From positions 1-39,446 of the forward strand of contig DAHYUM010000005.1 of assembly GCA_027398005.1 (NCBI GenBank): a stretch of DNA of 39,446 nt. The letters run 5' to 3'. The notes under the pieces were generated by a model that did not search any database, was not told the DNA's origin, and worked only from the letters and a program-made list of their open reading frames with translations. This stretch comes from a bacterium (lineage in GTDB: Bacteria; Bacteroidota; Ignavibacteria; Ignavibacteriales; Melioribacteraceae). Shown in pieces: positions 28,708 to 33,793 of this stretch. Every line of letters begins with the position of its first letter. Position 1 is the first letter of the stretch. The position numbers and the translations under genes were made by a program.

Positions 28708-30111
28708 TTGAGTAAAAAATTAGAAAAAATATTAATTCTTCTCATCGATTTCTTTACAATGAACATAGCCCTGATGTTCTTCTTTTATTTCAGGGTAAAT
28801 ACAGGCTGGTTCGATCTTATTACCGAACCGGTTCTGCTTTCGACCATGATTGCGGTTTATGTTTACTGGGTTGTATTCTTCACTTTTGCCGGCATGTACA
28901 AAACCTGGTTTGCATCCTCTCGGTTCGATGAGCTTTCCACCCTATTCAAGACCTCGTTCATCGGGGTTTTTCTCCTATTCTTTTTTATTATATACGACGA
29001 TTATATGCACGGAATGCCTCCGCAGCCTCCTACATTTATTCTTATTTACTGGGGACTCTTTTTCTTTCTGGTAGGCACCGGCAGGGTTGCAATACGCAGC
29101 ATTCAGAGAAGTCTTCTTATAAAAGGCATAGGTAGAAGGAACGCAATTATAGTAGGGTCCGGTTCTTCTGCAAGGAATATCTACCAGATGGTGCATAAAC
29201 ACAGGGGTCTGGGGCTGGATGTTCTTGGCTACGTTGCCGAAAAAAATGATGCCGGTGAATCTGCCCCTCTTAACGGTTCCGTTATAGGCGCCATTGAAGA
29301 TATTAAAGATATAATTTTGAATAATAACATAAAGACTGTAATTATTGCCCTTGAAAGGCACGAAGAGGAAATTATTTCGGGCGTAATTGAAAAATGTGAA
29401 GGTACAAATGTATCGCTTAAAATTGTGCCCGATCTTTACGAGATTATGAGCGGCCAGGCGCGCACAAGCCAGATATACGGTTTTCCGCTTATTGACATTA
29501 TGCCCGAGCTGATGCCCGAATGGGAAAAAAGCATGAAACGCATTATAGATATTTTAATGTCATTCATACTTTTAATTGTTTCGTTTCCTGTTACCTTAAT
29601 TGCGGCAATAGCCATAAAGCTCGAAAGCAGGGGGCCTGTTTTTTATAAGCAGGAAAGAATGGGGCTTAACGGAAAAGTATTTAAAATAATAAAATTCAGG
29701 TCGATGGTTCAGGATGCCGAAAAGGCGAGCGGGCCCGTCTGGTCCACAAAAGGGGATTCGAGAATAACTAAAGTAGGCAAATTTATCAGGCGTGTAAGAA
29801 TAGACGAAATACCGCAGATAATAAATATCTTCAAGGGGGAAATGAGTTTTGTAGGGCCCCGCCCCGAAAGGCCTTTCTTTGTTGAAAAACTTTCGCAGGA
29901 AATTCCGCTGTATAAAAGAAGATTGAAAGTCCGTCCCGGTGTAACCGGCTGGGCTCAGGTTAAGCACAAATATGACGAATCGATTGACGATGTTAAGGTT
30001 AAGCTAAGGTACGATTTGTTTTACATTGAAAACATATCCTTAAGAATGGATTTCAAGATAATATTCCGTACGGTTTTTGTGGTTCTATTCGGCAAAGGGC
30101 ATTTTGAATAA
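28708..30111 (+). CDS. Polyprenyl-phosphate hexose-1-phosphate transferase (WbaP-like polytopic phosphoglycosyltransferase), intact
   Basis: N-terminal TMs, Rossmann-like middle (NAIIVGSGSSARNI), complete catalytic domain KRIIDILMS...GPVFYKQERMGLNGKVFKIIKFRSM...RIDEIPQIINIFKGEMSFVGPRPE...RPGVTGWAQV. TTG start. Confidence 0.92.
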   Translation: MSKKLEKILILLIDFFTMNIALMFFFYFRVNTGWFDLITEPVLLSTMIAVYVYWVVFFTFAGMYKTWFASSRFDELSTLFKTSFIGVFLLFFFIIYDDYMHGMPPQPPTFILIYWGLFFFLVGTGRVAIRSIQRSLLIKGIGRRNAIIVGSGSSARNIYQMVHKHRGLGLDVLGYVAEKNDAGESAPLNGSVIGAIEDIKDIILNNNIKTVIIALERHEEEIISGVIEKCEGTNVSLKIVPDLYEIMSGQARTSQIYGFPLIDIMPELMPEWEKSMKRIIDILMSFILLIVSFPVTLIAAIAIKLESRGPVFYKQERMGLNGKVFKIIKFRSMVQDAEKASGPVWSTKGDSRITKVGKFIRRVRIDEIPQIINIFKGEMSFVGPRPERPFFVEKLSQEIPLYKRRLKVRPGVTGWAQVKHKYDESIDDVKVKLRYDLFYIENISLRMDFKIIFRTVFVVLFGKGHFE

Positions 30112-30130
30112 ACAAATTAAAGGGTTTGGT

Positions 30131-30847
30131 TTGAAAACACTCGTTATAATACCTACTTATAATGAACTTGATAATGTCAGGAAGCTGATTCCCGATATAC
30201 TTGAGAGGCATCCCGATTTTAATGTTCTTATAGTTGATGACGGAAGCCCCGACGGCACCGGCTCTTATGTTAAAGATTTAAGCCTTAAGGATGAAAGGGT
30301 TAAACTGCTTGAAAGGGAAAAGAAGCTTGGGCTTGGAACTGCATACGTTGCAGGGTTCAGGTATATGCTTTCCAACGGATACGACCTTGCATTGCAGATG
30401 GATGCTGATTATTCGCACGACCCGGGAGAACTGAAAAATTTTATTAACGCAGCCCAAAATTACGACCTTATAATAGGCAGCCGTTATATAACAGGGGTTA
30501 ATGTTGTAAATTGGCCTTTAAGACGTCTTTTGCTCAGTTATTTCGCAAATATATATTCCAGAATTATAACGGGCATTCCGGTAAAGGACTGTACCGGCGG
30601 ATTTAAATGTTTCCGCCGCGCCGTATTGGAATCGATAAACTTGGATAAAATTAAATCGAACGGATATTCTTTCCAGATAGAGATGAATTACAAAGCATGG
30701 AAAAACGGATTCCGCATTGGCGAAATTCCTATAATATTTGTCGATAGAATTATGGGGCATTCAAAAATGTCTAAAAGCATTGTTTACGAAGCGGTTTTTA
30801 TGGTCTGGAAATTAAGAATCAGAAGCATTTTCGGTAAATTAAATTAA
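30131..30847 (+). CDS. Polyprenol monophosphomannose synthase-like glycosyltransferase (Dpm1-type GT2)
   Basis: TLVIIPTYNELDNVRKLI, VDDGSPDGTG, LGLGTAYVAGFRYML, QMDADYSHDPGEL, IGSRYITG, DCTGGFKCFRR. Start at TTG 30131 rather than 30077, which overlaps the upstream gene. Confidence 0.85.
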   Translation: MKTLVIIPTYNELDNVRKLIPDILERHPDFNVLIVDDGSPDGTGSYVKDLSLKDERVKLLEREKKLGLGTAYVAGFRYMLSNGYDLALQMDADYSHDPGELKNFINAAQNYDLIIGSRYITGVNVVNWPLRRLLLSYFANIYSRIITGIPVKDCTGGFKCFRRAVLESINLDKIKSNGYSFQIEMNYKAWKNGFRIGEIPIIFVDRIMGHSKMSKSIVYEAVFMVWKLRIRSIFGKLN

Positions 30848-30854
30848 TCTAGTA

Positions 30855-32843
30855 ATGAAAGATCTCTCAATTATAATAGTAAACTATAATGTTAAGGAGT
30901 TTCTGCAGAATCTTCTCTATTCAATAGAAAAGGCATCGCAGAATCTGTCGGTTGAAACATTCGTAGTGGATAATGCCTCTGACGACGGAAGCGTTGATAT
31001 TATAAAAGAGAAATTCCCCTCTGTAAATTTAATTGCCAATAAAACGAATATAGGTTTTGGGGCGGCCAACAATATGGCCATGGCTAAGTCTGCCGGTAAA
31101 TATGTTCTTCTCATTAATCCCGATACTATTGTTAAGGAAGACACACTTGTAAAGATGGTTTCTTTCTTCGAAAGCCGTAAAGATGCCGGCATAGCAGGGT
31201 GCCGAGTGCTTAACCCCGACGGGTCTCTTCAGCTTGCGTGCAGAAGAAGTTTCCCCGGTCCGTGGACCTCTTTTACGAAAGTTACCGGATTAAGTTCTTT
31301 ATTCCCGAAGAGCAGGCTTTTTGCAAAATATAATTTGACTTATCTTGACGAGAACAAGACCTACGAAGTAGATGCAGTATCCGGCTCTTTTATGATGATG
31401 AGCCGCGAGGCATATAATAAGGTGGGCGGGTTCGATGAACAGTTCTTTATGTACGGCGAAGATATTGACCTTTGCTACAGAACCCAAAAAGCCGGTTTTA
31501 AAGTTTACTTTTTTCATGAGACTGAAATTATCCACTACAAAGGGGAAAGCACTAAACGAAGCAGTATAGACGAGACAACGGTGTTTTACCAGGCAATGCA
31601 TTTATTTGTCCGTAAACATCTTTCCTCTTCATTTATAGTAGAATTAATCCTTCAGTTCGCAATTTTCATCAGAAAGATATTCGCTTTCCTAAATATATAC
31701 CGTTTGATTGCCGCCGGCATTGTAATCGATTTTGTAATATTTTCATTCTCATTACTGGCGGCCGAAAAAATATACGGAATGTTTAAAGCGCACAGTTTCC
31801 CCGAGTATTCAAAACCGTGGGTTTTTATTGTACCTGCTTTTATTCAGGTAATGGTTTCAGCATTCTCAATGGCATATAAGAAAAATTCCATTTCCATTCT
31901 GCGAAGCCTTATATCGCTATTTTACGGAATACTGCTTCTTTCGACTATTACATATTTCTTTAAAGGTGTGGCATTCAGCAGAGCCCTTCTGCTTATCAAT
32001 TACATTATAGTATTAATTGCATTCCCCCTCTGGAGAATTATCTTTAAGGCTAAATTCAAAATAGGCATAGTTGCAGAATCGAGAAAAATAGGCACTCTTG
32101 TTGTAGGAACCGGCGAAAACGCCCTAAAGCTTGCCGCAAAACTAAATGCAAGTTTTACCAGTATTTACAGGGTAGCCGGGCTGATAGGGCAGACACGAAA
32201 GCAGATAGGGGAGAAAATTGAAAAATACCCGGTGCTGGGGAGTATTGAAAATATTAAAAAAGTAATTAACGAAAATAAAATTGATAAGGTAATATTTTCG
32301 TCTGAAGAGCTATCGTATAACCAGATGTTTGCAATTGTAGCCGATTGCCAGGGGGAAAACGTTGAATTTGTAGTAGCGGGAAACGATTTGAATTACCTCG
32401 TAGGCAAATCATCAATTTCAATGCTCGATGATATTCCGCTCCTTAAACTTCAGTACAATATTTCCGATTTTATCCACAGGACCGCTAAAAGGAGTCTGGA
32501 TATTGCCCTTTCGTTATTTTTACTTGTATTAATATATCCTTTTGTTTTAATTGCAGGCCTCTTTAATGGCAAAAAAGGTCCGTTCAGGCGCTTTGTTCTT
32601 AATTCCTTCAAAGTTCTTAAAGGTGGAATCAGCTTTGTAGGTCCAAAGGATAAAGTTGAATATGAAGGCCTTTACGTAGGCAAGCCCGGGCTTACGGGGC
32701 TCTGGTTTACCGAAAATATAGACAGGAATGATTTTCAGGAAAACAAAAAACTTGATATCTTCTATGCGAAAAATCAAAATATATGGCTTGACCTCGAAAT
32801 TTTGGGCAAGTCTTTTTCTAAAATGTTTTACGGAGACAAATAG
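30855..32843 (+). CDS. Fusion: GT2 glycosyltransferase plus WbaP-like membrane/Rossmann region plus truncated, apparently non-catalytic phosphoglycosyltransferase module
   Basis: N-terminal [18 protein letters not shown]...[25 protein letters not shown] (GT2); middle TMs and [18 protein letters not shown]-terminal [19 protein letters not shown]...[15 protein letters not shown]...[10 protein letters not shown] without QERxG/KFRSM/DExPQ. Confidence 0.85.
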
Positions 32844-33793
32844 TGGCAAAGTATATATTGGATTTTGAAAAACCGATTCTCGAGCTCGAAAATAAAGTTG
32901 CCGAAATGAAGAAACTTGAGGATAACCTCGATATTAGGGACGAAATAAGCAATCTCGAAGAAAAGGTTATTCAGCTTAAAAAATCTATTTACGATAATCT
33001 TACACGCTGGCAGAGGGTTCAGCTTGCCCGCCACCCCGAACGCCCTTATACACTCGATTATATTTTTATGATGACTGATGATTTTGTTGAACTGCACGGC
33101 GACAGGCAGTTCGGCGACGATAAAGCTGTTATTGGAGGATTTTGCACTATTGACGAGCATAAAATTATGTTAATAGGACAGCAGAAGGGAAGGGATACAA
33201 AGCAGAATGTGTATAGAAATTTTGGTATGATGAATCCAGAAGGCTACCGAAAGGCGTTAAGATTAATGAAGCTTGCCGAAAAATATAATAAACCTATTGT
33301 AACATTTATAGATACTCCCGGCGCATATCCCGGCCTGGAAGCAGAACAGAGAGGGCAGGCAGAAGCTATTGCCCGCAACCTGATGGAAATGAGCCGTCTT
33401 AAAGTGCCTATTATTGTAGTAATTATTGGCGAAGGTGACAGCGGCGGCGCTTTGGGTATGGGCGTAGGAGATAGGATTTTAATGCTTCAGAATACCTGGT
33501 ATTCGGTTATAAGCCCCGAATCGTGTTCTAGCATTTTATGGCGCAGCTGGGAATATAAGGAACAGGCCGCAGAAGCTTTAAAACTATCGGCACCCGATTT
33601 ACTGGAACAGGGGATTATTGATAGGATTGTTCCGGAACCACTCGGCGGAGCTCATAAGGACCATAAACTGATGGCCGCTATTCTTAAAACTGTTCTAAAA
33701 GAAGAGCTTGCTTTATTTGTCAAAGCCGACCCGAAAAAATTCCTTGAAAAGAGAATTAAGAAATTCGGCAAAATGGGTATGTTTATTGAATAA
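32843..33793 (+). CDS. accA: Acetyl-CoA carboxylase carboxyltransferase subunit alpha
   Basis: [103 protein letters not shown] start overlapping the upstream stop. Confidence 0.97.

Follow-up and report, generated by a model that had tools for sequence, protein, structure and literature searches.

A GT2 glycosyltransferase fused to a WbaP-type module without its catalytic core: a candidate pseudoenzyme recurring in several bacterial phyla

Introduction

A 39,446-nucleotide stretch of DNA from a member of the Melioribacteraceae (contig DAHYUM010000005.1; referred to as the window) contains a gene in which a GT2-type glycosyltransferase is fused to a WbaP-like phosphoglycosyltransferase (PGT) module that appears to have lost its catalytic core. 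The locus raises the question of what such a PGT half contributes to the protein, and whether it is a lasting part of it or the trace of a local accident. Neither this fusion nor any pseudo-PGT is described in the literature searched, which excluded the 2021 PNAS monotopic-PGT network study.

Results

Architecture of the fusion

The frame encodes 662 amino acids; its coordinates and the peptides quoted for it in a first-pass annotation agree with the sequence. The gene, its parts and its neighbours are as follows.

28708-30111, plus strand: intact WbaP/EPS_sugtrans-type PGT of the same operon; TIGR03025 at 452.9 bits against a cut-off of 295.55
30077-30847, plus strand: DPM1-like GT2 gene, immediate neighbour; PF00535, named from its sequence resemblance to polyprenyl-phosphate mannose synthase
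30855-32843, plus strand: GT2-pseudoPGT fusion gene
30855-31619, plus strand: GT2 catalytic domain, apparently intact (aa 1-255; Pfam PF00535/PF13641)
31620-32069, plus strand: WbaP-type transmembrane bundle (aa 256-405; NCBIfam TIGR03025 positions 1-281 correspond to aa 290-568)
32070-32384, plus strand: Rossmann-like DUF/CoA_binding_3 (aa 406-510; Pfam, with alternating strands and helices in the model)
32385-32468, plus strand: segment at the site of the dimer-swapping beta-hairpin of WbaP, VGKSS..LDD.P (aa 511-538)
32469-32564, plus strand: retained re-entrant membrane helix of the PGT module (aa 539-570)
32565-32654, plus strand: deletion scar, from which KFRSM and the DE-P-Q core are gone, followed by the SFVGP turn (aa 571-600)
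32655-32840, plus strand: leftover KPGLTG and C-terminal helices with Y..NQ.....D (aa 601-662)
32843-33793, plus strand: accA-like gene for a carboxyltransferase alpha subunit, conserved as the downstream neighbour, named from sequence alone

Pfam recovered three domains: GT2 (residues 4-234), CoA_binding_3 (343-505) and a partial Bac_transf match confined to the last part of the profile (positions 95-178 of 179, residues 585-658). The 28708-30111 product matches the full Bac_transf profile (1-178) at 237 bits. An AlphaFold model of the fusion, based on a 57-sequence alignment (mean pLDDT 85.3, pTM 0.67), predicts transmembrane helices at residues 260-281, 283-310, 317-337, 348-368 and 376-401, and a helix at residues 539-570, the site of the re-entrant helix. 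Within the hairpin segment, residues 526-532 have low confidence in this single-chain prediction. The top Foldseek match in the PDB is WbaP from S. enterica (8t53, E 1.4e-12), and a sequence comparison of the tail alone gives WbaP and PglC chains at E about 1e-7; the relationship of the C-terminal half to WbaP is thus more than chance. WrtF, RmlT and TarS are structural matches of the GT2 type of the fusion (PF00535/PF13641). Residues D39, N88-P89-D90 (D-x-D-like) and E202-D203 are invariant among 57 homologues. Judged by the predicted GT-A fold and by acidic residues suited to metal/nucleotide binding and to the role of base, the N-terminal half is a GT2 enzyme, and it is probably active.

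Loss of the catalytic core and selection on the remnant

Counted from the shared KR, the module had been reported to comprise 118 residues in the fusion and 191 in the 28708-30111 product, with the Asp-Glu dyad and KFRSM missing from the former, and re-measurement gave the same result. The lesion was then scored in 129 fusion proteins of 600-800 residues (long members, 128-129 scored), a set that includes some proteins with strong degeneration or with an end close to the DUF. From the proline of the re-entrant helix to the V of SxVG, these 129 proteins have 0-59 residues (median 32), compared with 86-87 in 25 intact WbaPs. All 25 of 25 WbaPs have DE at the dyad columns, and an acidic pair occurs there in 0/128 long members. 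A KFRSM-type motif was searched for in all 128-129 long members and found in none, and in the query VGPRPE has become VGPKDK, with loss of the PRP arginine. Matches of long members to an acidic-acidic-x-P expression fall in the hairpin segment, apart from three exceptions that likewise lie outside the core. A few Calditrichota fusions keep a fragment, IDEF or VDEF, with no PQ after it. At the level of sequence, the catalytic residues are absent, and the PGT half presumably no longer initiates glycans. Priming of lipid-linked glycans through another residue would be compatible with sequence data as such, but must be considered very improbable, as neither the dyad columns nor the column of the KFRSM lysine hold a conserved substitute and as, in every genome checked with the PGT family model, one or more PGT matches lie elsewhere than in the fusion.

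The flanking parts of the module are retained. In 28 diverse members from four clades, Bacteroidia excluded, residues K545, D549, G590, G596, G612, T614, Y637 and D646 are invariant, P562 and R546 are kept in 26/28, and S593 and V595 are nearly invariant; all of these are common to WbaP. The hairpin residues G517 and K518, directly before the re-entrant helix, are also invariant in 28/28, the position of K518 being Q in the WbaP of the window and S in Bacteroidia members. A VG...Y.....D type pattern is still visible in 108/128 long members. Fibrobacterota members lack the hairpin segment, and in Bacteroidia fusions the PGT remnant is strongly degenerate. For residues 539-662, dN/dS values (Nei-Gojobori) of 0.06-0.29 were obtained in ten Ignavibacteria pairs; they are rough, given high synonymous differences in several pairs, but every pair points to purifying selection on the remnant. 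The proposal of a maintained frame with a dead module is therefore borne out: the full-length frame is kept, and the remnant is under selection. With catalytic residues absent clade-wide and a frame kept by selection, the PGT module can be regarded as a candidate pseudoenzyme. Selection of this kind could serve folding stability alone.

Recurrence and origin

In whole genomes, 28 of 29 near relatives carry the fusion, each in one copy. The homologues that a genome scan detected in Ignavibacteria, Calditrichota, KSB1, Balneolales, Rhodothermia and Bacteroidetes are full-length and colinear, those in Fibrobacter shorter; the range of the fusion covers Calditrichota/KSB1, the L046 phylum, Rhodothermota, Balneolota and Bacteroidia. 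At the set thresholds and with GT2-only matches counted, 143/198 sampled genomes of the query's own phylum have matches. The corresponding numbers are 33/40 for Calditrichota/KSB1 (counted as one phylum, the same 40 genomes), 55/61 for the L046 phylum and 56/61 for Fibrobacterota, where most frames are about 540 aa long; a minority of these matches is GT2-only.

Whether the same core deletion recurs in homologues had been posed as a test, and it does: the core is absent from every full-length homologue aligned, and none of the 128-129 long members retains it. A homologue with an intact core was sought phylum-wide and among unusually long frames, and none was found; the extra length of these frames is N-terminal or reflects a less shortened remnant. 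A recent local deletion, frameshift or misassembly has almost no probability left, with the same lesion across several phyla and one open frame in 28 relatives. It was rejected, and an assembly error in particular, because the architecture recurs in many independent public assemblies of several phyla.

In a tree of the TM-DUF-PGT region, a 100/100 branch separates 38 fusion rows from 35 WbaP and WecA-WbaP rows and leaves the root position unfixed. The simplest reading would be a single fusion and a single loss of the core, followed by mostly vertical descent. As part of the best explanation, a WbaP-type large PGT would have joined a GT2 and lost its catalytic core in the common ancestor of the family.

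Natural truncations

Some members have lost more than the core. Fibrobacterota proteins end after the DUF (GT2-TM-DUF), with no PGT part in the fetched members. Forms of about 400 aa occur in many Bacteroidia and in three genomes of one Balneolota-like genus. In the latter the TM bundle and the PGT remnant are lost, the same locus in sister genomes encodes a 693-696-aa form, and WbaP is still there. A profile comparison aligns the C-termini of the short forms to the long-form DUF (E 1.2e-10, residues 408-531), and many of them terminate in the start of the hairpin, VGKS or VGS. A model of a short form (16 sequences; pLDDT 86.1, pTM 0.88) has a well-modelled strand-helix domain at this mini-DUF, which lacks much of the DUF domain. 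On the GT2 tree the label changes 4 times for the mini-DUF form and 5 times for the form with TM and DUF only; several branches are weak, and the starred branches require a minimum of 2 and 4 changes, respectively. Bacteroidia GT2 proteins of about 400 aa (L064, L068, L074, L082 and other short forms) were observed beside thiL/IMPase-like genes, and the mini-DUF of L074 goes unreported by Pfam.

The truncation series shows that the PGT remnant and the TM bundle are expendable, whereas a small DUF persists. The DUF outlasts the other parts, so that the function of the dead half more likely resides there. Repeated loss of remnant and TM bundle, and the degenerate state of the Bacteroidia remnant, could also mean that the remnant is inert, a slowly decaying tail retained only as part of one polypeptide. 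We regard this as unlikely in view of the low dN/dS in Ignavibacteria and of K545, D549, G596, Y637 and D646, which do not vary in four clades.

A second WbaP module without its dyad next to the fusion

In Calditrichota/KSB1 the gene directly upstream of the GT2 fusion encodes another fusion, of about 830 aa, in which a WecA-like polytopic PGT (PF00953) is joined to a full-length WbaP module. Such genes were located as follows.

L036:3524-6016, L038:5490-7973 and L049:3862-6381: WecA-WbaP of Calditrichota/KSB1, WbaP dyad replaced (YK)
L032:3009-5495 and L126:10623-13106: WecA-WbaP of two Ignavibacteria, dyad intact

Among nine Calditrichota/KSB1 tree rows, the dyad reads YK in eight and NR in one, so that DE is lost in all of them. 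Their WbaP modules form a clade (100/99) beside the intact WecA-WbaP of the two Ignavibacteria, and this dyad loss is a second, separate event. Within 8 kb of one KSB1 contig (L049:1044-8345) lie a short intact PGT, the GT2 fusion and a WecA-pseudoWbaP fusion.

Gene neighbourhood and the relation to active PGTs

The gene order in Ignavibacteria is WbaP, DPM1-like GT2, fusion, accA, thioesterase, often followed by nadC and a flippase, and at Ignavibacteria loci with enough flank an intact WbaP lies on the same strand 0.6-1.3 kb upstream of the fusion. In Balneolota an opposite-strand tgt comes after the fusion, and WbaP, the DPM1-like gene and accA follow it; in Balneolota/Rhodothermota the intact WbaP is found 1.2-3.7 kb downstream of the fusion. 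The DPM1-like gene adjoins the fusion in Ignavibacteria, in most sampled loci of the L046 phylum and in several Fibrobacterota, and in Balneolota it is part of the same cluster; the L046 phylum and several Fibrobacterota have the fusion flanked by the DPM1-like gene and/or accA. The order DPM1-like GT2, fusion, accA (30077-33793 in the window; loci L086-L176) was seen to be conserved between phyla, a fatty-acid synthesis gene (accA-like) thus persisting beside glycan genes. Bacteroidia members adjoin recR, thiL or other housekeeping genes, and a search for a PGT gene near the fusion at Bacteroidia loci found none linked. In the L046 phylum, 12/12 sampled genomes have a full-length large PGT, which is not adjacent. 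As a separate observation, locus L179 on contig C146 of the genome that contains the window encodes a Bac_transf-like protein that keeps KIRTM and LDELPQ. Similar partial Bac_transf matches occur in 600-700-aa frames of G219, G227, G230, G250, G347, G359 and G370; like that of L179, they begin at about profile position 31-38, so that all these proteins apparently lack the re-entrant helix.

This setting is compatible with docking of the pseudo-PGT half on an active PGT, WbaP or WecA-WbaP, by exchange of DUF hairpins, which would couple priming to addition of the second sugar. Besides the nearby same-strand WbaP and the large PGTs of the L046 phylum, the WecA partner in Calditrichota/KSB1, fused to a dyad-less WbaP module of its own, and the conserved hairpin segment fit such docking, and WbaP homodimerises via a DUF hairpin swapped between chains (PMC10942596). 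On the other hand, no correlation between large PGT and pseudo-PGT half was found across genomes, a large PGT being present in 20/20 genomes with long forms and in 20/21 with truncated forms. Together with the truncated forms that persist beside WbaP in one locus, this disfavours strict dependence on an active PGT, and the Bacteroidia members are unlinked to a PGT gene. Docking is therefore a possibility to which we give less than even weight.

Discussion

The fusion is best explained, with reasonable though not high confidence, as an active membrane GT2 whose PGT-derived half is an anchor plus a unit for DUF dimerisation and/or sensing of uridine nucleotides. The GT2 would perform the chemistry, extending a lipid-linked sugar that a PGT, for instance that of the same operon, has made. 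From the model and the conserved residues, the TM bundle and re-entrant helix would keep the GT2 on the inner side of the membrane. By homology to WbaP, the DUF with its hairpin may dimerise and/or sense nucleotides; the isolated WbaP DUF responds to UMP, UDP and UTP (PMC10942596). More generally, anchoring, pairing or regulation of the GT2 half is the probable task of the dead half.

Three roles had been proposed for the dead module: membrane anchor, binder of an undecaprenyl-diphosphate sugar (Und-PP-sugar) and partner of the active paralogue. Of these, the anchor fits best. Binding of Und-P or Und-PP-sugar by the module, for presentation to the GT2, would agree with the retained re-entrant helix and with the acceptors of such GT2 enzymes, which are usually lipid-linked. 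In PglC, Arg88 is reported to contact Und-P (PMC10519829). The pocket segment around the dyad, where the equivalent of Arg88 is expected (located from its position ahead of the dyad and not from a structure), is gone from the fusion, which makes binding by the remnant less likely, and Fibrobacterota and short forms lack the module entirely. We consider such binding improbable and favour the membrane anchor with a DUF unit.

A wider and more doubtful idea is that a non-catalytic PGT-derived DUF is a group-wide coupling device that pairs the GT2 with the initiating PGT, either WbaP or a WecA with a dead WbaP module of its own, and has repeatedly been cut to a mini-DUF. If so, a device so nearly universal would belong to a core pathway for envelope or protein glycans. 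Independently of this idea, the family is mostly single-copy and widespread and has a conserved neighbourhood, which makes it a candidate member of a core glycan pathway. According to a recent review (PMC12871550), the enzymes behind the O-glycan core common to Bacteroidota have not been identified; a tie of the fusion family to this core is a guess. In practice, automatic annotation may label these fusions glycan-priming sugar transferases, a function that is very unlikely. The truncation series also amounts to a natural dissection of the non-catalytic contribution of the WbaP DUF, a question left open after the WbaP structure.

Compared with known systems, the fusion resembles WbaP-type large PGTs (TIGR03025 EPS_sugtrans; 8t53) in its TM bundle, CoA_binding_3 DUF and hairpin position, and in a re-entrant helix with KR..D and Pro, SxVG, [KR]xGxTG and Y..N.....D. 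It differs from them in the added N-terminal GT2, in the absence of about 28-87 residues of the catalytic core, of the Asp-Glu dyad and of the KFRSM lysine, and, in the query, in the change of VGPRPE to VGPKDK. With membrane-associated GT2 glycosyltransferases (PF00535/PF13641) it shares the GT-A fold, the invariant Asp, NPD and E-D, but unlike in those enzymes its C-terminal half is PGT-derived and not a simple tail. PglF-like dehydratases have the same N-terminal architecture as large PGTs (PMC10942596) and, as described there, are set apart by having neither a PGT nor a GT2 part. The neighbouring WecA-WbaP of Calditrichota/KSB1 and some Ignavibacteria is similar in being a glycan-pathway enzyme fused to a WbaP module, dyad-less in 9/9 Calditrichota/KSB1 rows. 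However, its partner is a polytopic PGT (PF00953) and its origin is separate; its lesion is a substitution of DE by YK or NR with slight shortening, whereas that of the GT2 fusion is a large deletion.
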